From Bacteroidota bacterium (GTDB lineage: Bacteria > Bacteroidota > Bacteroidia > Bacteroidales > Prolixibacteraceae), in the NCBI GenBank assembly GCA_030698405.1, contig JAUYMU010000078.1:1-60643 (forward strand): a stretch of 60,643 nucleotides of DNA, read 5' to 3'. The notes under the pieces are model-generated. The model did not search any database. It worked only from the letters and a program-made list of their open reading frames with translations, and was not told the DNA's origin. The position numbers and the translations under genes were made by a program. Each line of letters begins with the position of its first letter. Position 1 is the stretch's first letter. Of this stretch, positions 27,592 through 41,910 are shown piece after piece.

Positions 27592-28776
27592 CTAGACCAA
27601 TTCAACTGTTACTTTTTTAAAAAAACGGGTTTCAAGCAACCGTACAATCCGCCTTACAACCGACTTGCGGATTTCAAGTTCGATGGGCTGATCAGGATCC
27701 TGGTGCGCCCAGTTGATGCGGGTTCCAACGATAATATGAATGTCGTCGTGTTGTGTCAGGAGCTTTACAACTTCTTCCGGCGGACTATCTTCCAGCCGCA
27801 TATCAGTTGTATAATTCTCCAGAATTTCCTCCACGCGTCCCAGTGTCAGAATCCCTTCGGTAACAATTTCGAACCCTTCCATTTTAGCTGCCGGGGGCAA
27901 TGTTTTTTCCGAAAACCGATGCTGAATATCAATTTCCAGATCCAGTTCGCGGGCAATAATTTCAGCAGTTGTTCCACCGCAAATAATCTTTTTCCCCGGA
28001 AATTCCTGAATTTTCTTTACAAATTCGGCATCCTTTATTTTATAAAATGGAGGCCCGGTAATCAACATAAACTGGCGGGGTTGTCTGAAATAAACAACTC
28101 CGCAACTGGCGTCATCGCTCATTTCGAACCCATCGTTCATCGAAGCCTGGTTCAGTATTTTACGGGCCAGTTTGGTGGCCGATATTTCATATTCGCGGGC
28201 AATCTGGCTTTCAGCAAATTTTTCAATGTTATCGAGTTCCCAACCCGCAGGGTAACGTTTGCTTCCCAAACCTGACTGAACAATGCCATCGGTCATGAAT
28301 ATAATTCTGTCTTCGAGCATGGGCGAAAACTCTCTGATCCGTAGTATTTTGCCTGCATTTTCTTCTCCTCTTATTGGAATTTGAGATTCTTTTGGATTAA
28401 AAACCTGCCCTCTCCTGAAAATTACAGAGCGCGGATTTTCGTAGTTGATGATCCTTACCTGTCCGGCATCTTCAATTTCGATAATGGTAAATGTGGCATA
28501 ACTTTCTTTGCCGTCCCTGCTTTTGGGCAGTGCACGCATGAAAATATTGGCAGCAACTTCCGGTTTTGTGTGGAACGAGGCATAGTTCAAAGCCATTGAG
28601 GCGGTGAGCGTTGCCAAAACATTGGCTTTTACACCATGTCCAATTCCATCCGAAAGCACCAGAATTGTTCTCCCTTCGGCACTGATTAGCCTTGAATGAA
28701 AAACATCGCCGCAAACGACTTGTCCGTGATGGTTGAGTTGATGAACATCTACTTCTATGTGGTAATCACTATTCAT
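27592..28776 (-). CDS. SpoIIE-type PP2C serine phosphatase with extra C-terminal domain
   Basis: Predicted cytosolic phosphatase of 394 residues. The PP2C/SpoIIE domain (about 1-235) keeps the metal-binding aspartates in LVLSDGIGHG, FMTDGIVQSG and MSDDASC. SpoIIE phosphatases normally dephosphorylate STAS-domain anti-anti-sigma factors in partner switching. The remaining about 160 residues (FMLITGPPFYKIKD, KIICGGTTAEIIARELDLE, DIHIIVGTRINWAHQ) form a domain I do not recognise. The ATG at 28776 overlaps the stop of the upstream PAS gene by 8 bases, so the pair is translationally coupled. The module divergent from it contains an RsbW-like ATPase. Confidence 0.88.
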   Translation of the reverse strand: MNSDYHIEVDVHQLNHHGQVVCGDVFHSRLISAEGRTILVLSDGIGHGVKANVLATLTASMALNYASFHTKPEVAANIFMRALPKSRDGKESYATFTIIEIEDAGQVRIINYENPRSVIFRRGQVFNPKESQIPIRGEENAGKILRIREFSPMLEDRIIFMTDGIVQSGLGSKRYPAGWELDNIEKFAESQIAREYEISATKLARKILNQASMNDGFEMSDDASCGVVYFRQPRQFMLITGPPFYKIKDAEFVKKIQEFPGKKIICGGTTAEIIARELDLEIDIQHRFSEKTLPPAAKMEGFEIVTEGILTLGRVEEILENYTTDMRLEDSPPEEVVKLLTQHDDIHIIVGTRINWAHQDPDQPIELEIRKSVVRRIVRLLETRFFKKVTVELV

Positions 28777-29695
28777 CCTCTCCGTATTTATAAGATTCGA
28801 TGATTGAATTAAGCAATTCCTCAGTAAGTGAAGCGTTGTCGCCAAGCAGGAATGCGATTTTCTGTACAGTTTCCAGATTTTGCCTGTTCACACGTTGTGC
28901 GCGACTGATAATTTCTTCGCGAACAAGCGACGGAGCCGACATATCGCGCAATAATGCCCCTACCACCCGGTGTTTATAAATAGTAATTACCGAAACATGC
29001 AGCAATTTATTCTGAATTTTCAGGTCGCGCTCAATCATATTTTCTCCTGAAATCATGGCTGAGGAGAACATTTTGAAGATAACATCCGGAACCAGTTCTT
29101 TCAGGTCGGCACCATGCAAACCCGGAATAGTTTCGTATAGTTCCTCTATTTCGGGACCAAACAGTTTTGCAAAACCTTCGTTCGAGTCTATCACTTTAAA
29201 CTCGCTGTCGATAATAATGATTCCGGCCCTGATTTTGTGCATCATGGCCGAAGCAATCACTGTAGCTTCGCGGGCTTTTTCAAGTTTACGTTCTGCTTTT
29301 TTACGTTCGGTTATGTCGAAAATTGACCCCACAATTCCGGCAATTTCCCCTTGGTTGTTGCGAATAACCGCTTTGTTGAAAACCACATCGTGCACCACCC
29401 CGGAAACATCGCGGAACTTCGCTTCATAATTCTGATCTCCCGGACTGTCAAACAATTCCTGATCGCGTTTCGAATAAATCTCAGCGATCTCAAAAGGCTG
29501 GATATCGAAAACAGTTTTCCCGATAATTTGAGATTTGGGCAAGCCCAACAGTTTTTCCTGAGCAAGGTTACAGGCTTTGTAAATGCCACTCAGGTCGCGG
29601 TAGAAAATCGGAATTGGCAATGCATCAATAATTTTTTGATGCAATTCAGGATCATCAATAAATCCCTGATTGAAAGATTTTTCTTCGTAAATCAT
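28769..29695 (-). CDS. PAS-domain sensor protein (two PAS domains)
   Basis: A 308-residue cytosolic sensor. PAS-1 (about 18-135) includes ALPIPIFYRDLSGIYKACNLAQEKLLGLPKSQIIGKTVFD and a PAC-like end GIVGSIFDITERKKAERKLEKAREA. PAS-2 (about 145-255) includes AGIIIIDSEFKVIDSNEGFAKLFG. A helical C-terminus (VNRQNLETVQKIAFLLGDNAS) follows. There is no kinase or output domain, so it likely acts on its partner, the coupled SpoIIE phosphatase. No heme- or flavin-binding signature can be asserted. It faces the hydrogenase regulatory genes across a 427-base divergent region. Confidence 0.88.
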   Translation of the reverse strand: MIYEEKSFNQGFIDDPELHQKIIDALPIPIFYRDLSGIYKACNLAQEKLLGLPKSQIIGKTVFDIQPFEIAEIYSKRDQELFDSPGDQNYEAKFRDVSGVVHDVVFNKAVIRNNQGEIAGIVGSIFDITERKKAERKLEKAREATVIASAMMHKIRAGIIIIDSEFKVIDSNEGFAKLFGPEIEELYETIPGLHGADLKELVPDVIFKMFSSAMISGENMIERDLKIQNKLLHVSVITIYKHRVVGALLRDMSAPSLVREEIISRAQRVNRQNLETVQKIAFLLGDNASLTEELLNSIIESYKYGEDE

Positions 29696-30122
29696 AGTGT
29701 GTGAATTTCGAACTTAAATTACGAAACATTTGTGAATTTCCAACCGCAGTCATTTATTAGTTAGGAATTCCAAAGCGCTGTACACCTTGTTCCTGCTTAC
29801 GAACTGCATGCGCCGTTTAAAAATATGAATTAGCAGCTAATATTGCCTTTGAAAAAGGTTCAATGATCAGTAGATTCCTGTTTCTTTTTAAAAAAAGCAA
29901 AATATGGGTGCCGGATTTCTCTGGAGAATTTTGCAGGATACGAAAATATTCAGGTTTACCCGCTTTATTCTGTAGCAAATATTTTGGACTGAAAAATCAG
30001 AAGCAGGAATTCATTTGAATTTCTTCTCTATAACCATTTTAAATAAGCCTCAATACTGATTTAGATCACAGGTATTTGGTAATTTTTTCTGAAATTTGCC
30101 GCAAACCCATTTAAAAATTACA
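29696..30122. promoter_or_regulatory. Divergent regulatory region between PAS/SpoIIE and the DRTGG-hydrogenase series
   Basis: The 427 bases contain no gene. The one distinct site is TGAT-TTAG-ATCA (30057-30068), which fits the core of CRP/FNR-family sites (TTGAT-N4-ATCAA) and lies 55 bases before the DRTGG start. No perfect TAnnTTTG box was found for either direction; GAAATTTG at about 30091 is a near match for the rightward gene. Confidence 0.4.
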
Positions 30123-30467
30123 ATGAAGCTGAAAGAGATCGCTGCTGTTTTAAATGCCAACATATCTTGTGGTGCCGATAAACTCGATGAAGAGGTGGAG
30201 ATGGGATACAGTTCCGACCTGATGAGCGATGTACTTACACTTGATACCGACAATCTGGTTCTTCTGACTGGTATGGTCAACCTTCAGGCAATACGTACCG
30301 CCGAAATGGCCGATATCCGCGCCATTGTATTTGTTCGCAACAAAAAAGCCAATCAGCCAATGCTCGATCTGGCCAAAGAGAACGGAATGTGTATTCTCGA
30401 ATCACCGTATTCGCTTTTTAAGTCGAGCGGCCTTTTATTTCAGGCCGGACTAAAACCGATCTATTGA
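30123..30467 (+). CDS. DRTGG-domain protein 1
   Basis: A 114-residue stand-alone DRTGG domain (MKLKEIAAVLNANISCGADKLDEEVEMGYSSDLMSDVLT...). The MGYSSDLMSDVL segment and the alternating hydrophobic strands match the second small protein at 32453-32788, so they are paralogues. DRTGG domains occur in CBS-type pyrophosphatases and other regulatory proteins and are thought to bind ligands or partners; exact role is unknown. ATG 30123 is chosen over an upstream TTG. It opens the rightward series leading to hydrogenase cluster 1. Confidence 0.85.
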   Translation: MKLKEIAAVLNANISCGADKLDEEVEMGYSSDLMSDVLTLDTDNLVLLTGMVNLQAIRTAEMADIRAIVFVRNKKANQPMLDLAKENGMCILESPYSLFKSSGLLFQAGLKPIY

Positions 30468-30562
30468 TTTACAATTTTGCTATTTACCATTTACTATTTT
30501 AGGATAACGACCAAGAAACAAAGCATGAGAAATATGAAACCCTTTCATCATTGCGATTTTTT

Positions 30563-30595
30563 CTCCCCCTCTTTTGGAGGGGGTAGGGGGGAGGC
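30563..30595. repeat. C/G-rich palindromic repeat, copy A
   Basis: CCCCCTC-TTTTG-GAGGGGG hairpin followed by GTAGGGGGGAGGCT. It belongs to the same family as the copies at 30641, 48412 and 48562 and lies in the 212-base gap before the RsbW-like gene. Confidence 0.75.
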
Positions 30596-30640
30596 TATCA
30601 ATAATCAAATGAGAAAATATTCGGGAACCGGTTCATTAAG

Positions 30641-30676
30641 CCCCCTCTTGTGGAGGGGGTTTGGGGGAGGCTTTTT
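30641..30676. repeat. C/G-rich palindromic repeat, copy B, abutting a start codon
   Basis: CCCCCTC-TTGTG-GAGGGGG hairpin followed by TTTGGGGGAGGCTTTTT. It ends 3 bases before the TTG start at 30680 and could form an mRNA hairpin next to the initiation site. Confidence 0.75.
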
Positions 30677-30679
30677 ATC

Positions 30680-31093
30680 TTGAAACTAATTTTTTCCATA
30701 CAAGGAGGCGATTTTACACACGCAGGACATCCGTCGAGCGAGGTAAAAAAGGTATTGAAGCAATTGGACATTGATGGGAAAACCATTAAAAACATTGTGA
30801 TTGCATTGTACGAAGCGGAGGTGAATGTGGTGGCACATGCCTGGCGCGGAACAGTCGATGTTGAAATTGACGAAAGCAAGATCACGATTTTGGTGAGCGA
30901 CGAAGGCCCTGGCATTCCCGATATTGAACAGGCAATGCAGGCAGGGTTTTCAACAGCAAGCAAGCAAGTTCGCGAAATGGGTTTCGGCGCCGGAATGGGT
31001 CTGCCAAATATGAAAAAAAATACAGACGAATTATATATTGAATCGGAAGTGGGAAAAGGTACAACGGTTAAAATGGTAAATAATTTCTCATGA
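30680..31093 (+). CDS. RsbW-like anti-sigma-factor-type ATPase (GHKL)
   Basis: A 137-residue single-domain GHKL ATPase. The N box is in IVIALYEAEVNVVAHAW, the G1 box in VSDEGPGIPDIEQAM, and the glycine-rich lid in GFGAGMGLPNMKKNTDEL. RsbW proteins phosphorylate STAS antagonists and bind sigma factors, but neither partner type is encoded nearby. The start is set at TTG 30680 (KLIFSIQGGDFTHAG) because upstream in-frame codons lie inside the C/G-rich repeat. Its stop overlaps the next gene (ATGA), indicating coupling to the hydrogenase-like protein. Confidence 0.85.
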   Translation: MKLIFSIQGGDFTHAGHPSSEVKKVLKQLDIDGKTIKNIVIALYEAEVNVVAHAWRGTVDVEIDESKITILVSDEGPGIPDIEQAMQAGFSTASKQVREMGFGAGMGLPNMKKNTDELYIESEVGKGTTVKMVNNFS

Positions 31094-32466
31094 GCGGATT
31101 ACCAAATTATCACGCGTTAAAAGTAGATGCTGCCAAATGCATCGGGTGCACGCACTGCATGAAAGCATGTCCTACCGAAGCCATTCGGGTGATAGACGGG
31201 TTAGCGGTTATCGACCACGAACGTTGCGTCGACTGTGGCCAATGCCATCGTTCCTGTCCTACCCAGGCATTTTATGTGGAACAGGACGATCTGACAAAAA
31301 TTAGAGCTTTCAAATACCGCGTGATCCTTTTTCCATCCATCATGATCGGTCAGTTTCCGGAGAAATACAATGAAACACAGATATACAGCGGCTTGAAAAA
31401 AGTTGGGTTTACCCATGTTTTCGAGGTCGAACAGCCAATACAACTACTGTTAGATTCAGTGAACGAATATCTCAGGAACGAAGAAAATCCCAAACCTGCA
31501 ATTTCCACCTACTGTCCGGCAATCGTTCGCCTTATTCAGGGGCGGTATCCATCGCTTACCGAAAATCTCATTCTCCGGAAAGCTCCACACGATCTGGCAG
31601 CGCATTTTGCCATTGAACGCTTGCTGCTCGAAGGAGCACAGCGCGAGGAAATTGGTCTTTTTTATGCAACTCCCTGTATTGCCAAAATAGCTTCAGTAAA
31701 AAGTCCGGTAGGAGAGCGCGAGTCGATTGTGGATGGCATTGTTAATATGAACCATCTGTACAATGAAGTCATGAAAGTGATTTCGGAAGTTGAAGCTGAA
31801 GACAATTCGGAACAGCGGCAAAATCTTTCGGAGGAGGGCATTCTGTGGAGCCAGACACGCGGTGAGTCCGGCCATTTTGGTTCCAGAAGTATTGCCATCG
31901 ACGGAATACACAATGTAGTACGGTTTCTTGAAAGGCTCGAAAACGATCAGGTGAAGGGAGTCGATTTTCTGGAACTTCGTGCCTGTGACCAAAGTTGTGC
32001 CGGTGGCATTCTGCTTACCGGAAACAGGTTTCTGACTGTTGAAAAACTTGAGCGACGGGCAAAGCGCTATCCGTCAGCAAAAGATATTTCGGAATCCACG
32101 ATCAGGGTTGATATTGAAGAACTGAAACAAAAGCTGGTCATCGATTCTATTAGCCCGAAACCACTTTTCATATTTGGAAAAGACAGGGTGAAGGCGATGG
32201 AGAAAATGACCAGAGCACAACGAATCGTATGCTCTTTGCCGGGAATTGACTGCGGGGCTTGTGGTGCACCCAACTGCCATGCCCTTGCCGAAGACATGGT
32301 TAACGGCAAGGCGAAAATGTCGGATTGCATTTTCCTGCAACAGATGTGGGAAGACGAGGGAAAGATTACGGCCAGAAAAGCGCTTCAGAATGTGCAAAAA
32401 AAATGGGGAAAAGATAGATTTAAAGCAGATTGTAATAAAAGAGGACGACGAAATGAAGGTTTCTGA
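31090..32466 (+). CDS. [FeFe]-hydrogenase-like iron-sulfur protein, probable sensor
   Basis: A 458-residue protein. Two ferredoxin [4Fe-4S] motifs come first (Cys17-20-23-27 and Cys46-49-52-56), then a hydrogenase large-subunit-like domain (about 80-345), then a further four-Cys iron-sulfur motif (Cys388-391-396-413, GIDCGACGAPNC). All four H-cluster-type cysteines are kept: Cys142 (STYCPAIV), Cys196 (TPCIAK), and Cys299 and Cys303 (RACDQSC). The position of the proton-relay cysteine is Tyr141, and the active-site Met before Cys299 is Arg. This suggests H-cluster binding without normal turnover, hence sensing; that role is inferred. It overlaps DRTGG gene 2 by 14 bases. Confidence 0.85.
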   Translation: MSGLPNYHALKVDAAKCIGCTHCMKACPTEAIRVIDGLAVIDHERCVDCGQCHRSCPTQAFYVEQDDLTKIRAFKYRVILFPSIMIGQFPEKYNETQIYSGLKKVGFTHVFEVEQPIQLLLDSVNEYLRNEENPKPAISTYCPAIVRLIQGRYPSLTENLILRKAPHDLAAHFAIERLLLEGAQREEIGLFYATPCIAKIASVKSPVGERESIVDGIVNMNHLYNEVMKVISEVEAEDNSEQRQNLSEEGILWSQTRGESGHFGSRSIAIDGIHNVVRFLERLENDQVKGVDFLELRACDQSCAGGILLTGNRFLTVEKLERRAKRYPSAKDISESTIRVDIEELKQKLVIDSISPKPLFIFGKDRVKAMEKMTRAQRIVCSLPGIDCGACGAPNCHALAEDMVNGKAKMSDCIFLQQMWEDEGKITARKALQNVQKKWGKDRFKADCNKRGRRNEGF

Positions 32467-32788
32467 AATTGTTGAAAAGCTAAAATTAAAAGTGTATTCG
32501 GGCCAAAAAGGTTTGGATCGCGAAATCTCGGGCGGATATGTTTCCGACCTGTTGAGTGATGTGATGGGAAATGCCCGTGAAGGCGAAGTTTGGATTACCT
32601 TACAGGTGCATCAGAATGTGATGGCAATTGCATCGCTGAAAGATTTGGCCGCTGTAATTCTGGTGAATAACCTTGAGCCGCTGGAAAATACGGTCAGGCA
32701 TTCCAACGATGAAAATATACCGGTGCTGGGAACCAGCCTGTCAACATTCGAAATTGCTGGAAAACTGTATCAACTCTTTAACCAGTAA
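32453..32788 (+). CDS. DRTGG-domain protein 2
   Basis: A 111-residue paralogue of the protein at 30123-30467; GGYVSDLLSDVMGNAREGEVWITLQVHQNVMAIASLKDLAAVILV aligns with the same parts of the first. Starting at ATG 32453 makes a 14-base overlap with the hydrogenase-like gene, indicating tight coupling. The presence of two single-domain DRTGG proteins on either side of the RsbW-like and hydrogenase-like genes suggests they are module partners. No catalytic motif is seen. Confidence 0.86.
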   Translation: MKVSEIVEKLKLKVYSGQKGLDREISGGYVSDLLSDVMGNAREGEVWITLQVHQNVMAIASLKDLAAVILVNNLEPLENTVRHSNDENIPVLGTSLSTFEIAGKLYQLFNQ

Positions 32789-32791
32789 ACG

Positions 32792-33532
32792 ATGAAATCG
32801 TTCAGGACAGATCTTCATATCCACACTGTTTTATCACCTTGTGGCGATCTGGAAATGAGTCCTGCGCGCATCGTTTCGCTTGCCGGTAAAAGAGGGTTGG
32901 ACATCATCGGAATCACAGATCACAACTCGACCAAACATTGCCAGTTGGTTTGGAAACTGGGGCGAAGGTCGGGTTTGACGGTGATTCCGGGTTGCGAAAT
33001 GACTTCGCGCGAAGAAGTTCACTGCCTCGGTTTTTTTGAGGATTTTGATGCGCTGAACGAATTTCAGGACTTTCTGGACCTGCATCTCACAATTATTCCA
33101 AATAAACCTTCCTTGTTTGGCTATCAGGCGGTGGTCGATGAATTCGATTATATTTTGGAAGAACAGGCCAATTACCTCGGTGCATCATTGGATGTGAGTA
33201 TCGAAGAAGTAGAGCAGAAAGTACACGAACTCTCCGGAATTTTTATTCCGGCGCACATCGACAGGCCGCGAAACAGCCTGTACAGTCAGTTGGGATTTTT
33301 CCCTCCTGAATTAAAAGTGGAGGCCCTTCAGATTTCGAAACTTGCTGATGAAAAGGTCGTTCGTGAAAAATTCAGGATTAATCCTGAAATCACTTTAGTG
33401 AAATTCTCGGATGCCCATTATCCTGAAGATCTGGGAAAAACATTCACAATCTTTGAAATGGAAGAACCCACATTTACCGAAATAAGGAAAGCTTTGTTGC
33501 GGGAGGATGGACGAAATGTGAGGATTCCGTAG
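32792..33532 (+). CDS. PHP-domain phosphoesterase-like protein
   Basis: A 246-residue metal-dependent PHP fold. Metal-binding motifs are present in order: DLHIHTVLSPCGD (6-18), ITDHNSTKH (about 41-49), PGCEMTSREEVHCLG (about 66-80), PAHIDRPRNS (about 152) and KFSDAHYPEDLG (about 208). The set looks catalytically complete, so hydrolase activity is plausible, but the substrate is unknown. It follows DRTGG 2 by 3 bases and is part of the same operon. Confidence 0.9.
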   Translation: MKSFRTDLHIHTVLSPCGDLEMSPARIVSLAGKRGLDIIGITDHNSTKHCQLVWKLGRRSGLTVIPGCEMTSREEVHCLGFFEDFDALNEFQDFLDLHLTIIPNKPSLFGYQAVVDEFDYILEEQANYLGASLDVSIEEVEQKVHELSGIFIPAHIDRPRNSLYSQLGFFPPELKVEALQISKLADEKVVREKFRINPEITLVKFSDAHYPEDLGKTFTIFEMEEPTFTEIRKALLREDGRNVRIP

Positions 33533-33608
33533 TGAAAGTTGGCAGTCACAGAAAGCAATATTCAAAGCCAACCTGGAATTTTGAACCTGAAACTTGGAAC
33601 TAATTCAA

Positions 33609-34157
33609 ATGAAAGACCTTTCTCTTCATATTCTCGACATTGTCCAGAACTCAATCCGGGCAAAAGCTACACTGATTGGGATAGAAATTGATGAATATCC
33701 CAATGAAAATCAATTAATTATTACCATTTCCGACGATGGGACCGGCATGGATCCGGAACAATTGAAACGCGCCATCGAACCGTTTTATACTTCGCGAACT
33801 ACCCGAAAAGTTGGCCTGGGTTTGTCGCTTTTCAAACAGAATGCTGAAATGACAGATGGCTCATTCAGTATTGAATCAGAGCTGGGCAAAGGAACAAAAG
33901 TCACCGCAATATTTGGAATGTCTCATCTCGACCGTCCAATAATGGGCGATATGGTTGGAACCTTACTCATCCTGATATGCTCTTCCGACGAAATCAACTA
34001 TGTCTTTAAACATAAAACACCTTCAGGCGAATTTGAGATAGATACCCGCGAAATAAGGCAAACGCTTGAAAATGTTCCGATTAGTAATCCTGACGTCAGG
34101 TTATTCCTGAAGGAAATGCTTCAGGAAAATTTAGAACAAATCCAAATTAGCGAATAA
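33609..34157 (+). CDS. Histidine-kinase-like ATPase domain protein (HATPase_c)
   Basis: A 182-residue protein with a GHKL ATPase domain (about 1-115): N box LSLHILDIVQNSIRAKA, G1 ISDDGTGMDPEQL, and G2 TTRKVGLGLSLFKQNAEM. No phosphoacceptor-histidine domain is present. The C-terminal about 65 residues (VGTLLILICSSDEINYVFKHKT) are not recognised. It is the second stand-alone ATPase in the module, distinct from the RsbW-like one. The ATG at 33609 is preferred over an upstream TTG. The spacer before it (33533-33608) has simple GAACCTGAAACTTGGAAC repeats. Confidence 0.88.
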   Translation: MKDLSLHILDIVQNSIRAKATLIGIEIDEYPNENQLIITISDDGTGMDPEQLKRAIEPFYTSRTTRKVGLGLSLFKQNAEMTDGSFSIESELGKGTKVTAIFGMSHLDRPIMGDMVGTLLILICSSDEINYVFKHKTPSGEFEIDTREIRQTLENVPISNPDVRLFLKEMLQENLEQIQISE

Positions 34158-34232: not shown

Positions 34233-34631
34233 ATGAACAAAATAAAAAGTCTGGCTGACTTAAAGAAACTTCAATCCGAAGTTCAGTCGAAAATTAAACT
34301 TAGAGAAAAAGGCGACAGCCCGGAGCAATTGGTTCAAATTAAAGTTTCGATGGCAACCTGCGGCATTGCTTCAGGAGCAAAAGAAACCATGAACTTCCTG
34401 ATTGAGGAGCTTGATCATCAGGGAATTGATGTTATCGTTACCCAAACTGGTTGCATGGGATATTGCTACGCCGAACCAACCATCGAATTGACAATTCCGG
34501 GAAAAGCGCCAGTGGTTTATGGTTTTGTCAACAAAAACAAGGCGCAGGAAATCATTGATAAACACATCAAACTCAATGAAATGGTAGATGGAATTATTCC
34601 GGTAGCTTATTCAACAATTGATAATAAATAA
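34233..34631 (+). CDS. Thioredoxin-like [2Fe-2S] ferredoxin protein of the hydrogenase cluster
   Basis: A 132-residue protein with a thioredoxin-like [2Fe-2S] fold: MATCGIASGAKETMNFL gives the first cysteine and TQTGCMGYCYAEP two more. Only three cysteines are in the usual positions (CGIAS, CMGYC), one fewer than the classical NuoE set, though this small-subunit type often has that spacing. It resembles the N-terminal domain of HydB and likely shuttles electrons in cluster 1. It is encoded 16 bases before hydB. Confidence 0.85.
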   Translation: MNKIKSLADLKKLQSEVQSKIKLREKGDSPEQLVQIKVSMATCGIASGAKETMNFLIEELDHQGIDVIVTQTGCMGYCYAEPTIELTIPGKAPVVYGFVNKNKAQEIIDKHIKLNEMVDGIIPVAYSTIDNK

Positions 34632-34647
34632 AAACAAACGGACTATT

Positions 34648-36441
34648 ATGGCCGAATACAATATGCATATCCTTGTATGCGGAGGAACCGGATGCAAGGC
34701 TTCACAAAGCGAACTGATCAAATCGAATTTTCAACACCGCCTCAATGAGTTCGGGCTTTCCGATGAAATTCAGGTTATCCTGACCGGTTGTTTCGGATTT
34801 TGCGAAAAAGGTCCCATCGTGAAAATTTTGCCAGACAATACTTTTTACACTCAGGTTAATCCTGAAGATGTGGCCGAGATTGTTGAGGAACATATTATTA
34901 AAGGCCGAAAAGTGGAGCGTTTGCTTTACCGCGATCCTGAAACGCAAGAATTGGTGGGCGATTCGAAGGGAATGGATTTTTACAAAAAGCAGATTCGGAT
35001 AGCACTTCGCAATTGTGGTTTTGTCAATCCTGAAAACATAGAAGAGTACATTGGTCGAGACGGTTACGCTGCTCTTGGAACCTGTCTTTCAGAAAAAACA
35101 CCGGATGAAGTGATCGACATGATCAAAGATTCCGGTCTGCGTGGGCGTGGCGGCGGTGGTTTTCCAACGGGGCTGAAGTGGCAATTGACACGCAAATCGG
35201 TGAGCGACCAGAAATACGTGGTTTGCAACGCCGACGAAGGCGATCCGGGCGCATTTATGGATCGTTCAATTTTGGAAGGCGACCCACATTCGGTGCTCGA
35301 AGCGATGGCCATTTGCGGCTATTGTATTGGCGCCGACAAAGGCTTGGTTTACATTCGGGCTGAATACCCGTTGGCCATCGAACGCCTGAAGATTGCCATC
35401 AATCAGGCACGTGAATATGGTTTGTTGGGTGACGATATTTTGGGAACCGGATTTAATTTCGATGTTGAAATCCGATACGGAGCCGGAGCTTTTGTGTGCG
35501 GCGAAGAAACCGCACTGATCCATTCGATGGAAGGAAAACGTGGCGAACCGACCGTAAAACCACCATTTCCGGCAGAAAAAGGTTACAATGGCAAACCTAC
35601 CAATGTGAACAATGTGGAAACTTTTGCCAACATTCCGGTTATCATTAATAAAGGTGCGGAATGGTTTGCTTCAATCGGAACTGAAAAATCAAAGGGAACC
35701 AAAGTATTTGCTCTCGCCGGAAAAATCAATAATGTGGGTTTGATTGAAGTTCCAATGGGAATTACCCTTCGCGAAATAATATACGATATTGGAGGCGGAA
35801 TAAAGGATGGCCGCAAATTCAAAGCAGTACAGACTGGTGGTCCCTCCGGAGGTTGTTTGACCAATACGTTTTTGGATACACCGATTGACTACGATAATCT
35901 GGTTGCTGCCGGCTCCATGATGGGTTCAGGCGGAATGATTGTGCTTGATGATACCGATTGCATGGTGGCTATTGCTAAATTTTACCTCGAATTTACGCTC
36001 GACGAATCTTGCGGAAAATGCACTCCCTGCCGTATTGGTAACAAACGACTGCACGAAATTCTGGAAAAAATAACCGAGGGAAACGGCAAAGTGGAAGATC
36101 TCGACCGGCTGAGGTTATTGAGCAATGTAATTAAAGATACATCACTTTGCGGGTTGGGACAAACATCGCCCAATCCGGTACTTTCAACACTCGACCATTT
36201 TTACGACGAATACCTGGCGCATGTCACAACGTCTTCCTGTCCGGCAGGCCAGTGCAAGGCATTGATGCACTATTCAATTGATACAGACCGCTGCACCGGA
36301 TGTACTATTTGTTTCAGGAATTGCCCGGTTGGCGCCATTTCAGGAGAAAGACGTGCCCCCCATTACATCGACCAGTCGTTGTGTATAAAATGTGGTATGT
36401 GTGTTGCGAAATGTAAGTTTGATGCAGTTTTAATTGGCTAA
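34648..36441 (+). CDS. hydB: [FeFe]-hydrogenase NADH-binding beta subunit (NuoF-like), cluster 1
   Basis: A 597-residue flavoprotein that exchanges electrons with NAD(H) via FMN. Domains in order: thioredoxin-like [2Fe-2S] (about 1-90, CGGTGCKAS and TGCFGFC); the NuoF core with SGLRGRGGGGFPTGLKW, NADEGDPGAFMDR and GAGAFVCGEETALIHSMEGKRGEPTVKPPFP; an N3-type [4Fe-4S] site ESCGKCTPCRIG; and a C-terminal two-[4Fe-4S] ferredoxin domain (CTGCTICFRNCP, CIKCGMCVAKC). This full set is that of electron-bifurcating HydB. ATG 34648 is chosen over an upstream in-frame ATG that would overlap the previous gene. Confidence 0.95.
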   Translation: MAEYNMHILVCGGTGCKASQSELIKSNFQHRLNEFGLSDEIQVILTGCFGFCEKGPIVKILPDNTFYTQVNPEDVAEIVEEHIIKGRKVERLLYRDPETQELVGDSKGMDFYKKQIRIALRNCGFVNPENIEEYIGRDGYAALGTCLSEKTPDEVIDMIKDSGLRGRGGGGFPTGLKWQLTRKSVSDQKYVVCNADEGDPGAFMDRSILEGDPHSVLEAMAICGYCIGADKGLVYIRAEYPLAIERLKIAINQAREYGLLGDDILGTGFNFDVEIRYGAGAFVCGEETALIHSMEGKRGEPTVKPPFPAEKGYNGKPTNVNNVETFANIPVIINKGAEWFASIGTEKSKGTKVFALAGKINNVGLIEVPMGITLREIIYDIGGGIKDGRKFKAVQTGGPSGGCLTNTFLDTPIDYDNLVAAGSMMGSGGMIVLDDTDCMVAIAKFYLEFTLDESCGKCTPCRIGNKRLHEILEKITEGNGKVEDLDRLRLLSNVIKDTSLCGLGQTSPNPVLSTLDHFYDEYLAHVTTSSCPAGQCKALMHYSIDTDRCTGCTICFRNCPVGAISGERRAPHYIDQSLCIKCGMCVAKCKFDAVLIG

Positions 36442-36453
36442 AAAGTACTTTCT

Positions 36454-38205
36454 ATGGAAATGATAAACCTTACAATAGATCATAAACCGGTAGTAGTCCG
36501 CAAAGGAACCACCGTGCTGAAAGCGGCTTCGAGCATCGGGATCGACATTCCAACGCTTTGTTATATGAAGCTGGATGACATGAACATCGAGAATAAACCC
36601 GGAGGTTGCCGTGTTTGCGTGGTTGAAGTGAAGGGCCGTAAAAATCTCGCGCCTGCCTGCTGTACCGAAGCCACTGAAGGGATGGAAATAAGTACGCATA
36701 CCATCCGCGTGGTAAATGCCCGTCGCACCGTGGTTGAGCTGATTTTATCGGATCATCCGGCTGATTGCCTGATTTGTGCAAAATCCGGGAACTGCGAATT
36801 GCAGGACATGGCGCATCACCTCGGAATCCGTCAGATTCATTACGAGGGAGAAAAATCGATGTACCGCGAAGATACTTCTCCGGCAATTATCCGCGATATT
36901 AATAAATGCATCATGTGCCGCCGTTGCGAAACCATGTGCAACGACGTGCAAACTGTCGGAGTTCTTTCAGCGATAAACCGAGGTTTCAATGCCGTTGTGG
37001 CGCCGGCTTTCGAGATGAACCTCGACCACTCCGTTTGTACTTACTGCGGTCAGTGTGTGGCTGTCTGTCCTACCGGCGCCCTGACTGAAGTTGACCAGAC
37101 CGGCGCTGTGATTCGTGCACTTTCCGATCCGATGAAAACGGTAATCGTACAAACTGCGCCTGCTGTTCGTGCGGCATTGGGCGAAGAATTCGGAATGCCT
37201 GCCGGAACGTTGGTGACCGGGAAAATGGTTGCAGCTTTACGCCGTTTGGGTTTCGACTACGTTTTTGATACCGATTTCGCTGCCGACCTCACCATTCTGG
37301 AAGAAGGAACCGAGTTGCTGAACCGTTTGTCTGCCTACATAGCTGGCGATCAAAATGTTAAACTTCCGATCCTGACATCCTGCTGTCCGGCCTGGGTGAA
37401 GTTTTTCGAGCATTCTTTTCCTGAATTAAAAGACATTCCTTCAACAGCGCGATCGCCCCAGCAAATGTTTGGTTCGATTGCCAAAACCTATTTTGCTGAT
37501 AAAATTAAGGTGAAACGCGAAAATCTTGTGGTGGTTTCCATCATGCCTTGTCTGGCAAAAAAATACGAAAGCAGCCGTCCTGAATTTGCTGTGAATGGCA
37601 ATCCTGATGTGGATTATGCACTGACCACAAGAGAATTGGCTCATTTGATCAATCTTGGAAACATCGAATTTAAGTCACTTCCGAATGAAGAATTTGATGC
37701 TCCGTTGGGCGAATCTACCGGTGCAGGAGTGATTTTTGGCACCACCGGTGGTGTAATTGAAGCTGCAGTTCGTACAGCCTACGAATTATTTACAGGGAAA
37801 CCTTTGCCACGTGTCGATTTCGAGGAATTGCGCGGAATGGACGGATTGCGCAAGGCAACCATCGACTTTAACGGAACGCCGATAAATATCGGAATTGCTC
37901 ATGGTTTGGGAAATGCGCGTAAGTTGCTCGAAGATATTCAGGCCGGAAACAGTGAATTTCATGCCATCGAAATTATGTCGTGCCCCGGTGGTTGTATTGG
38001 TGGAGGCGGTCAGCCATACCATCATGGCAATGCCGAAATTTTGAAAAAACGGCAAAAGGCTATTTATTCTGAGGATAAAAATAAAACACTCCGGAAATCG
38101 CACGAAAACCCATACATAAAAAAGCTTTACGAAGAATTTTTGGGCGCACCGATGAGCGAAAAAGCCCATCATTTGCTGCACACCAAGTATTTCGACAGGA
38201 GCTAA
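36454..38205 (+). CDS. hydA: [FeFe]-hydrogenase catalytic subunit, cluster 1
   Basis: A 583-residue H2-evolving/oxidising subunit. N-terminal [2Fe-2S] (Cys36, 52, 55 and 69 or 70), His-ligated [4Fe-4S] (His101, Cys105, 108, 114) and two [4Fe-4S] sites (Cys152-155-158-162, Cys195-198-201-205) lead to the H-cluster. L1 is TSC310-C311-PAW, L2 MPCLAKKYE, and L3 MSCPGGCIGGGGQP, all canonical. With HydB and HydC it should form the trimeric NADH/ferredoxin-linked enzyme. It lies 12 bases after hydB; an inserted repeat element separates it from hydC. Confidence 0.97.
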   Translation: MEMINLTIDHKPVVVRKGTTVLKAASSIGIDIPTLCYMKLDDMNIENKPGGCRVCVVEVKGRKNLAPACCTEATEGMEISTHTIRVVNARRTVVELILSDHPADCLICAKSGNCELQDMAHHLGIRQIHYEGEKSMYREDTSPAIIRDINKCIMCRRCETMCNDVQTVGVLSAINRGFNAVVAPAFEMNLDHSVCTYCGQCVAVCPTGALTEVDQTGAVIRALSDPMKTVIVQTAPAVRAALGEEFGMPAGTLVTGKMVAALRRLGFDYVFDTDFAADLTILEEGTELLNRLSAYIAGDQNVKLPILTSCCPAWVKFFEHSFPELKDIPSTARSPQQMFGSIAKTYFADKIKVKRENLVVVSIMPCLAKKYESSRPEFAVNGNPDVDYALTTRELAHLINLGNIEFKSLPNEEFDAPLGESTGAGVIFGTTGGVIEAAVRTAYELFTGKPLPRVDFEELRGMDGLRKATIDFNGTPINIGIAHGLGNARKLLEDIQAGNSEFHAIEIMSCPGGCIGGGGQPYHHGNAEILKKRQKAIYSEDKNKTLRKSHENPYIKKLYEEFLGAPMSEKAHHLLHTKYFDRS

Positions 38206-38210
38206 AACAG

Positions 38211-38299
38211 GTCATTGGTTGTCATTGGCTACGCGTCATTTGTAGTCATTGAAAAACGTCATTGTTTGTCATTAGGTCATTAAATTGTCATTAATTGTA
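38211..38299. repeat. GTCATT array, left arm
   Basis: Eight copies of GTCATT spaced 7-14 bases apart. The array is the reverse complement type of the AATGAC array at 38491-38560, and the two flank a decayed four-helix-bundle gene. Confidence 0.8.
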
Positions 38300-38313
38300 G
38301 AAAAAAATTAGGA

Positions 38314-38502
38314 ATGAAATTGGAGGATTTACAGGTTTATCAGATTTCGATGAAACTTGCTGATGAAGTTCATGATTTGGTTATGGAATGGGATAATTTC
38401 CATAAGTTCTCTGAATTGATTGACCGATATAATTCTCTGGGAATTAAACTTAATAATTACATCAATACCATCGGAAATTCAGGCAACACCAATGACCACT
38501 AA
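38314..38502 (+). pseudogene. Internally deleted four-helix-bundle (S23/IVS-type) gene
   Basis: A 62-residue frame that reads MKLEDLQVYQISMKLADEVHD, the start of four-helix-bundle proteins of the 23S rRNA intervening-sequence type, then jumps to FSELIDRYNSLGIKLNNYINTIG, their usual C-terminus. From memory, full proteins are about 115-120 residues with a central SIAANIAEG-type segment that is absent here, so about half is missing although the frame is kept. It is enclosed by GTCATT and AATGAC arrays between hydA and hydC and is probably not functional. Confidence 0.7.
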
Positions 38503-38560
38503 ATGACCATTAATGACTATTGAATGACAATTGAATGACTACTAATGACCACTAAATGAC
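38491..38560. repeat. AATGAC array, right arm
   Basis: Seven copies of AATGAC with a close to 10-base period (AATGACCACT, AAATGACCAT, TAATGACTAT...). It is the inverted partner of the GTCATT array at 38211-38299 and begins over the end of the decayed gene. Confidence 0.8.
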
Positions 38561-38595
38561 TATTCTTTAAATATTAACGAATCAACTATACAGAA

Positions 38596-39102
38596 ATGCC
38601 AGGAATAAAACTTTCAGAAAAAACAATCGGAATCATCCAGCAGGTTTGTTCCGATTTCAGGAATGAGGGAAGTGAACTGATCAACGTTTTGCACCAGACT
38701 CAGGGTAAACTTGGCTATTTGCCTGCCGAGGTTCAGGAAGTGATTGCCAAAGAACTGAATATTTCGGTCGCCAAAGTTTATGGAGTGGTAACCTTCTATT
38801 CCTTTTTTACCATGATCCCAATGGGCGAGCACCCGATTTCCATTTGCATGGGAACAGCATGCTACGTGCGCGGTTCGGAGCAGGTGCTTGCCGAATTCAA
38901 ACGCCAGTTAAGTATTGAAGTCGGGCAATCTACTCCCGACAATAAATTTTCGCTCAACTGCCTGCGTTGCGTTGGCGCCTGTGGACTGGCGCCTGTGGTG
39001 ATGGTTGGCGACAGAGTGTATGGCCGTGTTTCGCCGCAAATGGTAAAAAACATCATTTCTGAGTACAAGGAAGGTTGCGTTAGCGAAGCGAAAAGTGCTT
39101 AA
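38596..39102 (+). CDS. hydC: [FeFe]-hydrogenase gamma subunit (NuoE-like), cluster 1
   Basis: A 168-residue NuoE-type subunit with a helical N-terminus (about 1-80, VLHQTQGKLGYLPAEVQEVIAKELNISVAKVYGVVTFYSFF) and a thioredoxin-like [2Fe-2S] domain. The four cluster cysteines are in CMGTACYVRG and CLRCVGACGLAP. It should pass electrons between HydB and HydA. Normally it is directly linked to hydB and hydA; here a 390-base spacer with the GTCATT element intervenes, which may affect co-expression. Confidence 0.94.
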   Translation: MPGIKLSEKTIGIIQQVCSDFRNEGSELINVLHQTQGKLGYLPAEVQEVIAKELNISVAKVYGVVTFYSFFTMIPMGEHPISICMGTACYVRGSEQVLAEFKRQLSIEVGQSTPDNKFSLNCLRCVGACGLAPVVMVGDRVYGRVSPQMVKNIISEYKEGCVSEAKSA

Positions 39103-39234: not shown

Positions 39235-40035
39235 ATGATCCGAACACTATTACTCACTATAGTTTTTGTTGGTTTTATCACTTCAATTATAGCGCAGACT
39301 AATTACAAAACCGAAAACAATATTTCCTACCGAAGTGGCGAAAACCTTGACGAATACATGAAAGAACGGTGCAAGCTGGACATTTACTTTCCTGAAAATG
39401 TGGACAGTTTTACCACAGTGGTTTGGTTTCATGGTGGTGGTTTGACTGGCGGCGAGAAGCATATTCCGGAGCGCCTGAAGAATAAAAAGGTGGCCATTGT
39501 TGCAGTGAATTACCGACTCAGTCCGAAAGTAAAAAGCCCTGCCTATATTGACGATGCAGCGGCTGCCGTTGCCTGGACATTTAAAAATATCAGCAAATAC
39601 GGAGGCGACCCGAAGAAAATTGTGGTGTCGGGTCATTCTGCTGGCGGTTACCTTGCCTGCATGATCGGGCTCGACAAACATTACCTTTCAGCCTATGGAA
39701 TTGATGCCAATTCGATTCAGAAACTGATGCCGTTCAGCGGACAGATGATTACCCATTTTAATATCCGGAAAGAACGGGGCATTCCTGAAAAGCAGCCATT
39801 GGTTGATGAATTTGCACCTCAGTTTCATGTTCGCGCCGATGCACCGCCCTTGTACTTAATTACCGGCGACCGCGAATTGGAAATGTTGGGCCGCTACGAA
39901 GAAAATGCCTACATGTGGCGCATGATGCAGATTTCAGGACATAAGCAAACTACACTTTACGAACTGGATGGTTTCGACCACGGCGGAATGGCAGAACCGG
40001 CGTTTGATTTATTGCTGAAGATTTTGAAGAAATAA
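39235..40035 (+). CDS. Secreted alpha/beta-hydrolase, carboxylesterase type
   Basis: A 266-residue exported esterase. A signal peptide (1-20, ending TSIIAQT) precedes the alpha/beta fold. The oxyanion HGGG motif is at 66-69, the nucleophile Ser135 in GHSAGG, the Asp in TGDRELEM and the His in DGFDHGGM. The sequence resembles feruloyl/acetyl-xylan-type esterases (BD-FAE-like), but the substrate is not proven. It lies between the two hydrogenase clusters without an evident functional link. A near-consensus TACTTTTA box lies 24 bases upstream. Confidence 0.9.
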   Translation: MIRTLLLTIVFVGFITSIIAQTNYKTENNISYRSGENLDEYMKERCKLDIYFPENVDSFTTVVWFHGGGLTGGEKHIPERLKNKKVAIVAVNYRLSPKVKSPAYIDDAAAAVAWTFKNISKYGGDPKKIVVSGHSAGGYLACMIGLDKHYLSAYGIDANSIQKLMPFSGQMITHFNIRKERGIPEKQPLVDEFAPQFHVRADAPPLYLITGDRELEMLGRYEENAYMWRMMQISGHKQTTLYELDGFDHGGMAEPAFDLLLKILKK

Positions 40036-40230: not shown

Positions 40231-40716
40231 ATGAATCCTGTTTCCGATCTTATTAAAAATCTGGCCGATCAACATGGACGCAGCAGACACAATCTGTTGC
40301 CCATACTTCAGGGAGTTGTTGAGCAGGAAAAATACCTTTCCGAATTTTCGATGACTGAAATTGCCCGCGAGCTAGACTTGCCTGCTGCTGAAGTTTATGG
40401 AACTGCAACCTTCTATTCTTTTCTGGAACACAAAAAAATGGGTCGGTACATCATCCGTATCTGCAAAACCATTACATGTTCCATGAAAGGTAAAAATCAG
40501 GTTTTGCTGGCCATTGAGGACATGTTGAAAATTAATGTCGGCGAAACTACCCCCGATGGAACTTTCTCGCTACTTCAGACCAACTGCCTTGGTTTTTGCC
40601 ACAAAGCTCCTGCAATGCTCATTAACAATGAGGTTTTTACCGACCTTACTCCTGAAAAAGTGCGCGATATTTTAAGTACTTATATGAAAAAGAAAGGAGC
40701 ATCGCATGACAACTAG
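40231..40716 (+). CDS. [FeFe]-hydrogenase gamma subunit (NuoE-like), cluster 2
   Basis: A 161-residue NuoE-type subunit. LLPILQGVVEQEKYLSEFSMTEIARELDLPAAEVYGTATFYSFL is the helical part, and the [2Fe-2S] cysteines are in CKTITCSMKG and CLGFCHKAP. It is paralogous to HydC at 38596. It overlaps the next gene by 11 bases, and so begins the second hydrogenase operon, which has its own order (gamma, beta, alpha). Confidence 0.93.
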   Translation: MNPVSDLIKNLADQHGRSRHNLLPILQGVVEQEKYLSEFSMTEIARELDLPAAEVYGTATFYSFLEHKKMGRYIIRICKTITCSMKGKNQVLLAIEDMLKINVGETTPDGTFSLLQTNCLGFCHKAPAMLINNEVFTDLTPEKVRDILSTYMKKKGASHDN

Positions 40717-41890
40717 TTACCAGCTTAAAAGGGTCGATTTTATTTTCAAGAATGAAAATGACTGGGAAGATGTGTTAAGCAAAAGCATCAGTAAACCCCC
40801 TCAGGAATTAATTAACGAATTGATAAGTTCGGAATTAAAAGGCCGGGGAGGTGCCGGTTTTCCGACAGGGTTGAAATGGAAACTTTCGTCGGAAGCTGTT
40901 GACGACACCAAATATGTAATTTGCAATGCCGACGAAGGCGAGCCCGGAACATTCAAGGATCGTGAAATTCTGTCGCGGGTTCCGTTTAAAGTTTTGACTG
41001 CTATGGCAGTTTGTGGTCACGTAATTGGCTCAAAAGAAGGCTACATTTATCTGCGTGGCGAATATTTTTTCCTTCAGCCTGAACTAAATAAAGCGATCAG
41101 CGAATTCGAATACTACTGCAAGGAAATCAATCTGGATTTCAAAATCAGGATATTTATGGGCAGCGGGGCATACATCTGCGGCGAAGAAACCGCTCTTTTC
41201 GAGTCGATGGAAGGCAAGCGCGGTGAACCAAGGAATAAGCCGCCATATCCTTCTTCTTATGGATACATGGGCAAACCAACCGTTATCAATAATGTGGAAA
41301 CACTGGCCCACACTTTTACCATTTTTAAATACGGAGCCAAGCGCTTCTACGATTTGGGCGTACAGTATTCGCGCGGCTCAAAACTGTTTTCGGTTTCAGG
41401 AGATACGCCCAAACCCGGAATTTATGAACTTGAACTTGGGATGAGCCTTGCCGATTTTGTGGATGAATTTGGCGACGGCGATACCAAAGCTGTTCAGGTG
41501 GGTGGCGCTTCGGGCTTTCTGGTTCCACGCAAACGGTTTAATGAAACTGCTATCGGATTCCAGGGAAAACTGACAGGAATATCGCTGCCTACCGGAGGTT
41601 CGATGATGCTTTTCAACAGTTCGCGTTCCATGTTCAATGTGATTGACAATTATCTTGAATTTTTCCGCGAAGAATCGTGCGGACAGTGTACGCCTTGCCG
41701 CGTGGGCTGTCAGCAGTTGCTTAGCGGAATAAAAGCAGTGAAAAGGGGCGAGAAAAATGCACAATACCTCGATAAACTGATGCGTTTGGCCGAAACCATG
41801 CAATACACCGCCAAATGCGGTTTGGGGCAATCGGTCGCCAACTCATTTTCGTCGATTGTTGAAAATTTCAGGGAAGAAATGATTTATTAA
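40706..41890 (+). CDS. Short NuoF-like NADH-binding beta subunit, cluster 2
   Basis: A 394-residue flavoprotein with the NuoF core only: LKGRGGAGFPTGLKW (FMN/NADH), NADEGEPGTFKDRE, GSGAYICGEETALFESMEGKRGEPRNKPPYP, and the [4Fe-4S] site ESCGQCTPCRVGCQQL. It lacks both the N-terminal thioredoxin-like [2Fe-2S] domain and the C-terminal two-[4Fe-4S] domain seen in HydB of cluster 1. In the literature as I recall it, absence of that C-terminal ferredoxin domain goes with NADH-dependent, non-bifurcating enzymes, so this cluster may differ functionally. The ends look natural. Confidence 0.92.
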   Translation: MTTSYQLKRVDFIFKNENDWEDVLSKSISKPPQELINELISSELKGRGGAGFPTGLKWKLSSEAVDDTKYVICNADEGEPGTFKDREILSRVPFKVLTAMAVCGHVIGSKEGYIYLRGEYFFLQPELNKAISEFEYYCKEINLDFKIRIFMGSGAYICGEETALFESMEGKRGEPRNKPPYPSSYGYMGKPTVINNVETLAHTFTIFKYGAKRFYDLGVQYSRGSKLFSVSGDTPKPGIYELELGMSLADFVDEFGDGDTKAVQVGGASGFLVPRKRFNETAIGFQGKLTGISLPTGGSMMLFNSSRSMFNVIDNYLEFFREESCGQCTPCRVGCQQLLSGIKAVKRGEKNAQYLDKLMRLAETMQYTAKCGLGQSVANSFSSIVENFREEMIY

Positions 41891-41910
41891 CGCTGCAAAA
41901 CCGATTCGAA

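Follow-up and report, generated by a model that had tools for sequence, protein, structure and literature searches.

A conserved DRTGG1-RsbW-HydS cassette and a candidate partner switch without STAS at a bifurcating hydrogenase locus

How might an electron-bifurcating hydrogenase come under the control of an RsbW-type kinase when no STAS protein is encoded beside it? The question is raised by a stretch of 60,643 nucleotides (contig JAUYMU010000078.1 of assembly GCA_030698405.1; contig C57 of genome G000 in our numbering), referred to here as the window, from the 5.49 Mb genome of a member of the Prolixibacteraceae (Bacteroidota). Eight regulatory genes in the window sit between a gene for a GH9 cellulase and the operon of a bifurcating hydrogenase. 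A PAS-domain protein and a PP2C phosphatase are encoded on the minus strand; DRTGG1, RsbW, HydS, DRTGG2, PHP and HATPase follow one another on the plus strand, ahead of the hydrogenase genes Fdx-HydB-HydA-HydC. An initial annotation, made from the nucleotide sequence, had read the set as a partner switch built on PP2C and RsbW, with the DRTGG proteins possibly in the role of STAS and the hydrogenase-like protein as the sensor. All eight genes were found at that place with the families it had named, both DRTGG proteins scoring below or at the Pfam cut-off, and the overlaps of 8, 4 and 14 bases that it listed are correct. It had also called the set divergent from the hydrogenase operon, which is true of the PAS and PP2C genes; the other six are co-directional with Fdx-HydB-HydA-HydC.

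The best explanation of the locus, to which we assign a probability of roughly one half, is that two separable sensor modules are stacked on the bifurcating hydrogenase and would act by the mechanism proposed below. The first comprises DRTGG1 (30123-30467), the RsbW/SpoIIAB-type kinase-ATPase (30680-31093 from a TTG start, a GTG at 30650 also being possible) and HydS (31090-32466), a putative sensory [FeFe]-hydrogenase of group D (M2e-like). They are followed by DRTGG2 (32453-32788), the metal-dependent phosphoesterase PHP (32792-33532; PF02811), a GHKL ATPase with a C-terminal extension, HATPase (33609-34157; PF02518), and the presumed target, the Fdx-HydB-HydA-HydC operon (34233-39102; HydA of group A6, NF040763, E 3e-272; HydC, PF01257). 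The second module is the PAS-PP2C pair. Domains above the Pfam cut-off in the window are SpoIIE, PAS, HATPase_c_2, Fe_hyd_lg_C with Fer4 and FeS, PHP and HATPase_c.

The evidence that DRTGG1, RsbW and HydS belong together comes from two directions. A scan of genome contigs with a HydS alignment confirmed at least 495 relatives, of which the best 80 were kept; the window and two further genomes bring the sample to 83 HydS loci (L numbers). Among the matches listed, the closest HydS relatives of the window are from the Prolixibacteraceae. Genes at these loci were labelled with positional profiles, since the HydS and HydA profiles, and those of RsbW and HATPase, cross-match. Once the misses had been inspected, 80 of the 83 loci proved to have DRTGG1 and 82 to have RsbW. 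The mechanical count had been 79 for each; RsbW is present at L078 and L092, beyond the distance limit, both genes are present at L114, masked by a longer false frame, and L089 starts at a contig edge. The genes are tightly packed, with median spacings, calculated from longest-frame starts, of 4 bases between DRTGG1 and RsbW (77 pairs) and 9 bases between RsbW and HydS (79 pairs). Downstream, DRTGG2 occurs at 68 loci, PHP at 68 and HATPase at 58, and HydA at 49 of the 83 as fetched, many contigs being short. The triad is found in Bacteroidota, Bacillota and Spirochaetota, and DRTGG2-PHP-HATPase mostly follows it in the first two; an Acetivibrio locus (L115) is an example with the full cassette. 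Six Spirochaetota/UBP6 loci (L096-L099, L102, L104) carry DRTGG1-RsbW-HydS only, with no hydrogenase within the fetched stretch, and the cassette can thus be split into DRTGG1-RsbW-HydS and DRTGG2-PHP, HATPase often standing beside the hydrogenase genes.

The reverse survey, which was not selected on HydS, used the RsbW profile as a query against 198 genomes of the order (G numbers). RsbW occurs in 62 of them, the window genome included, always as a single copy; DRTGG1 is adjacent or fused to it at 61 of these 62 loci and HydS is adjacent at 57. The lone DRTGG1 miss (L193) is 128 bases away from the end of its contig, and DRTGG1 is encoded on another contig of the same genome. The DRTGG1 profile matches 63 of the 198 genomes, namely all 62 with RsbW and one more, G373, where the score is at the level of DRTGG2. 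The five RsbW loci without an adjacent HydS retain DRTGG1-RsbW and four of them also DRTGG2-PHP-HATPase, in a locus-level view. In a wider survey of 296 genomes spread across the phylum, RsbW was found in five: with HydS in the window genome, G172 and G180, and without it in G047 and G228. Chance falls far short of explaining the arrangement. The neighbourhood survey that the initial annotation had proposed, once run, thus shows non-random co-occurrence of DRTGG1, RsbW and HydS, and the cassette is real and more widely spread than that annotation could know. At the loci of G172 and G180 (L006, L007) a protein that looks like HdrA, named from its sequence, is encoded directly upstream of the cassette.

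Natural fusions and replacements indicate which parts of the cassette are central. Fused DRTGG1-RsbW proteins are encoded at two Bacillota loci (L108, L118) and in two Bacteroidota genomes (G363, G439), and they have lengths of 269, 269, 279 and 272 residues; Tepidanaerobacter is among the hosts. At least two fusion events are needed: on a quick 59-row HydS tree two changes are required, and the starred branches force two. Pfam finds a DRTGG and an ATPase domain in each of the three fusions searched (L108, L208, L209), though the DRTGG domain of L209 (24.2 bits) falls just below its cut-off and in L208 HATPase_c_2 is just below its own cut-off while HATPase_c is above. A further apparent fusion of 769 residues at L114 was rejected; the DRTGG1 and RsbW genes are intact there, and the N-terminal half of the supposed fusion is a translation across them in the wrong frame. 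In G047 and G228 it is RsbW that is extended (305 and 310 residues): it carries two N-terminal CBS domains (PF00571, E 4e-27 and 1e-26), has a HATPase_c_2 score below the cut-off and is flanked by DRTGG1 on one side and DRTGG2-PHP-HATPase on the other. Neither genome has a strong HydS match (best E 1.3e-8 and 9.1e-8, five candidates scored per genome). The G228 locus (L257, contig C46, 1918-12945) combines this cassette with HydB, a HydA-like protein of 1083 residues in which no [FeFe] catalytic domain was found, and two NiFe-hydrogenase-type subunits. These hydrogenase neighbours resemble an electron-bifurcating NiFe hydrogenase. Sensor and catalytic module can both be exchanged while DRTGG1, RsbW and DRTGG2-PHP stay; nothing else speaks as strongly for RsbW as the centre of the module and HydS as its input.

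The sequences of the two core proteins are consistent with a kinase and a partner. Residue counts were made over rows of at least 80 bits pooled from both surveys. The N-box Glu and Asn and the Asp and Gly of DxGxG are invariant in 143 of 143 RsbW rows, and the window protein has the HATPase_c_2 fold (PF13581) with both its E...N and DxGxG motifs. Its best structural match is SpoIIAB (1til, E 6.9e-12), ahead of RsbW (2.4e-5). The profile of DRTGG1 matches the DRTGG structures 3l2b and 3l31 (E 0.002), which belong to CBS-type pyrophosphatases; unlike these, DRTGG1 stands alone or is fused to RsbW. DRTGG1 and DRTGG2 are paralogues (hhalign probability 99.6%). Against the PF07085 cut-off of 25.2 bits the window copies score 18.7 and 25.2, and among relatives L108 (28.5), L208 (31.4) and L254 (25.6) are above it while L209, as given above, and L255 (22.2) are below. 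Ser35, in the motif SDLMSDV of DRTGG1, is conserved in 140 of 140 DRTGG1 rows and in 98 of 98 DRTGG2 rows. DRTGG1 shows no detectable relation to a STAS profile built from four rows (1% probability), and Pfam finds no STAS domain among the cassette proteins.

That no STAS gene is nearby had been noted correctly: the four in the source genome are on other contigs (two on C123, one each on C95 and C26). For the C123 and C95 genes there is an RsbW gene within 3 kb and a SpoIIE gene within about 6 kb, so that the STAS, RsbW and SpoIIE sets elsewhere in the genome group with each other. A further RsbW-type ATPase is encoded on contig C25 (10305-10664), on which no STAS gene was found. The assignment of DRTGG1 as the RsbW partner, in the place of STAS, is well supported because the two are joined or adjacent at all but one of the 62 RsbW loci and have fused naturally in four genomes. 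It is the strongest part of the initial annotation.

HydS has the features of a group D enzyme. The window protein contains two Fer4 domains and an H-cluster domain, has no PAS match and ends in a Cx2Cx4Cx16C motif, which is present in 81 of the 83 HydS proteins; of the other two, L081 ends with its contig and L105 has a different spacing. CpI residue numbers were placed on the HydS alignment by motif. The four H-cluster cysteines and the position of CpI Lys358 are conserved in all 83 proteins. All 83 also lack C299 and have Ser or Thr at M353, in agreement with group D as set out in the sections of PMC8163306 consulted. Judged by motifs and residues against that published description, in a comparison where our tree held no characterised group C or D sequences, the window HydS is most simply placed in group D (M2e-like). 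TamHydS of Thermoanaerobacter mathranii (group D/M2e), as described in the parts of PMC8163306 and PMC13104023 seen, likewise has two N-terminal [4Fe-4S] clusters, an H-domain, Cx2Cx4Cx16C and no PAS domain. It too lacks C299 and has Ser/Thr at M353; its gene lies, like that of the window HydS, close to a bifurcating group A hydrogenase, and also close to a histidine-kinase-like ATPase. The DRTGG1-RsbW-DRTGG2-PHP context of the window is not mentioned for TamHydS in those parts of the two papers. The earlier suggestion of a hydrogenase-like sensor is supported: HydS is the likely input, and it may sense H2 or redox state.

The PAS-PP2C pair has a different history. The PAS protein (28769-29695, minus strand) contains two PAS domains and no hydrogenase domain, and its residues 149-306 are 48% identical to residues 458-613, within the C-terminal tail, of a 617-residue HydS from Labilibacter (L053); the window PP2C (27592-28776, minus strand; SpoIIE-type, PF07228, E 2.5e-16) is 51% identical to the PP2C adjoining that HydS. 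We call the L053 HydS group C-like on the basis of this tail; Pfam finds hydrogenase and FeS domains in it and no PAS domain in the tail at E 0.01. The best 30 PP2C loci in the order divide into 23 that encode a protein combining HydS with the tail, two with the tail alone (partly cut or in a different frame), two with neither, and three (G000, G366, G469) with the 308-residue PAS form; PAS forms of 308-311 residues also occur at L040, L041, L043 and L050. The window pair is thus homologous, through PP2C and the C-terminal PAS half, to the adjoining HydS-PP2C genes of other Bacteroidota, and differs from them in lacking the hydrogenase domain and having a second PAS domain. To judge from these alignments, PAS-PP2C derives from a group C-like HydS-PP2C pair, PAS having replaced the hydrogenase domain. 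The hfsB-hfsC genes of Thermoanaerobacterium, as described in the consulted parts of PMC11837493 and PMC5707799, are an analogue of HydS-PP2C, a likeness by description.

Sixteen group C-like loci were fetched from other Bacteroidota. Six are HydS-PP2C, five of them beside HydA, and none of the six has RsbW or DRTGG. The other ten (L122, L125-L128, L130-L132, L134, L135) have HydS and a kinase-like ATPase in one protein, and no gene there was labelled PP2C. The Asp columns D24, D43, D163, D221 and D222 of PP2C, presumably the metal-binding ones, are invariant in all 12 aligned sequences. About 150 residues at the C-terminus of the window PP2C (27592-28050), an uncharacterised domain with no Pfam match, contain the conserved stretches GGTTAEIIARE and DLVTEGILTLG and are common to the 12 aligned hydrogenase-linked PP2C proteins.

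PP2C and PAS each occur at only six of the 83 HydS loci as fetched, and relative to DRTGG1-RsbW-HydS the PAS-PP2C module is optional. Does PP2C nevertheless act on the DRTGG1-RsbW pair? In a full partner switch RsbW would phosphorylate DRTGG1, the PAS-controlled PP2C would dephosphorylate it and HydS would modulate the exchange. Gene order gives this idea some encouragement. At L216 the order is HydS-C, PP2C, DRTGG1, RsbW, HydS-D, and there and at L053 PP2C directly precedes DRTGG1 in the same direction; L220, which has no adjacent HydS-D, has HydS-C-PP2C in the same locus. PP2C is present in 50 of the 62 genomes with RsbW, the two lying on one contig and about 12 kb or less apart in at least nine of the 50. 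Counts of both, RsbW only, PP2C only and neither are 50, 12, 19 and 117 in the 198 genomes (p 7e-20) and 50, 11, 18 and 47 in the 126 that bear HydA (p 6e-10), by Fisher tests that ignore kinship. The association vanishes among the 74 genomes with a close HydA orthologue (HydA matches of at least 64% identity, a cut chosen by us), where the counts are 48, 9, 13 and 4: PP2C is about as frequent without RsbW (13/17, a small group) as with it (48/57), p = 0.48, and 70 of the 74 have PP2C and/or RsbW. We therefore rejected co-occurrence as an argument for one circuit that PP2C and RsbW would share. The HydS-PP2C loci without RsbW or DRTGG, described above, also speak against a full switch, as does the close relative G469, which keeps PAS-PP2C by its hydrogenase while RsbW and DRTGG1 were undetected in the genome. 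On balance we consider the full switch unlikely. The same observations, together with the neighbours of PP2C elsewhere, which are group C-like HydS proteins, count against a core logic built on PP2C and RsbW, the weakest part of the initial annotation. HydS-C/PP2C and HydS-D/RsbW/DRTGG are two hydrogenase-linked modules that occur together in 50 of the 198 genomes, with PP2C and RsbW as proxies. We read them as two modules serving one enzyme, direct cross-talk of PP2C with DRTGG1-RsbW being unproven.

In the mechanism that we propose, the H-cluster of HydS and its three accessory [4Fe-4S] clusters would register H2 or the ferredoxin/redox state, and the state of HydS would alter that of the RsbW-type kinase. 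RsbW would bind and probably phosphorylate DRTGG1, and perhaps DRTGG2 as well, at the invariant serine within SDLxSDV, and DRTGG would thereby fill the place of STAS in classic partner switching. The output would tune the hydrogenase, and control by protein-protein contact seems likelier than control through a linked transcription factor because the conserved cassette proteins have no recognised DNA-binding domain. PAS-PP2C, as a derivative of an HfsB-HfsC-like pair, may feed the DRTGG1-RsbW-HydS module but need not.

Two described systems bear on this mechanism. With SpoIIAA-SpoIIAB-SpoIIE and RsbVWU the locus shares the motif residues of the RsbW/SpoIIAB-type kinase and a SpoIIE-type PP2C nearby; it differs from them in having no STAS or sigma factor in the cassette and a DRTGG protein in the STAS position. 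In CapK-CapS, according to the sections of PMC13373217 consulted, an anti-sigma-type GHKL kinase and the adjacent invariant-Ser protein have been demonstrated to be kinase and substrate, an arrangement like that of RsbW and DRTGG1; CapS is a STAS-wHTH repressor, whereas the partner in the cassette is a DRTGG protein in which no DNA-binding domain was found.

Several observations weigh against the two-module account and its mechanism. The window RsbW does not reach the curated scores of the families that it most resembles (spIIAB, 74.2 against 135 bits; RsbW, 35.4 against 145). A Thr is as conserved in the DRTGG proteins as the Ser (139 of 140 DRTGG1 rows, 98 of 98 DRTGG2 rows), the invariant Ser may be structural, and synteny and fusion are association, not proof of a substrate. 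At two loci, L116 and L117, RsbW-HydS is present, but an unfiltered search of the 2 to 2.5 kb in front of HydS found no DRTGG1. The sample of 83 loci was taken from the top of at least 495 matches, its members are related to each other, and it also served to train the profiles. Within the HydS pocket, the Bacteroidota/Spirochaetota/UBP6 proteins have Phe or Tyr at C299 (63 of 63) and Arg at M497 (62 of 63), and these residues make H2 activation by proteins of this set uncertain; the 20 Bacillota-type proteins are variable at both positions. The window HydS shares Phe/Tyr and Arg there and in this is unlike TamHydS, as compared by description with the parts of PMC8163306 and PMC13104023 seen.

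A reading without signalling, in which the GHKL ATPases, PHP and DRTGG proteins would help to assemble, repair or mature HydABC and HydS would be a redox or cluster-transfer component, strikes us as more doubtful still than the full switch. GHKL ATPases do include chaperones, and the neighbours of the cassette in G228 are HydB, NiFe-type subunits and a HydA-like protein in which no [FeFe] catalytic domain was detected; yet RsbW is nearest to the SpoIIAB/RsbW kinase group, it bears CBS domains in the two genomes without HydS, and the triad occurs with no hydrogenase in the fetched stretch in the Spirochaetota/UBP6 loci listed above. Least probable of all is that RsbW serves as the anti-sigma factor of a sigma factor encoded elsewhere, with DRTGG1 as its antagonist and a transcriptional output: its best NCBIfam and PDB matches are to the anti-sigma F factor SpoIIAB, but no sigma factor is among the conserved cassette genes, unlinked ones not having been searched for.

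Other features of the locus touch the two-module account less directly. The PHP columns expected to bind metal (His, Asp, Glu) are kept in 97-100% of 68 sequences, and at L094, in a single metagenome-assembled genome, PHP and HATPase are fused into a protein of 427 residues. The gap between DRTGG1 and RsbW in the window (182 or 212 bases, depending on the RsbW start) holds two copies of a G-rich, near-palindromic genomic repeat (30565-30584 and 30641-30660, spanning 30565-30660). There are ten copies in the genome and none of a reversed control pattern; the repeat may have changed the start region of RsbW, which now begins with TTG or GTG. A second HydC-HydB-HydA set, also of group A6, is directly downstream of the first operon at 40231-43701, with a hydrolase-like gene, named from sequence, between the two sets (39235-40035). 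A Bacteroidetes promoter motif is not enriched (3 observed, 4.4 expected), and no tRNA was found in the window.

That group D HydS genes lie near bifurcating hydrogenases and a histidine/serine kinase had been noted before (PMC3561251, in the part consulted), and their signal path is called an open question in the part of PMC8163306 seen. Among the matches listed in the literature searched, which was mainly open access, we found no account of the DRTGG1-RsbW-HydS-DRTGG2-PHP cassette. The cassette suggests H2 or redox sensing without the usual partner proteins. More broadly, and more tentatively than for the window itself, RsbW kinases with phosphorylatable DRTGG partners and an exchangeable sensor, either a group D [FeFe]-hydrogenase or kinase-fused CBS domains, might constitute STAS-less partner switching that, in two or more phyla (probably three), controls electron-bifurcating hydrogenases. 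The DRTGG1-RsbW pair offers a specific two-protein test case for it. If a STAS-less DRTGG-RsbW system is confirmed, it would supply the signal path still missing for group D sensory hydrogenases, and if DRTGG does replace STAS, the principle of partner switching would be wider than its textbook parts.

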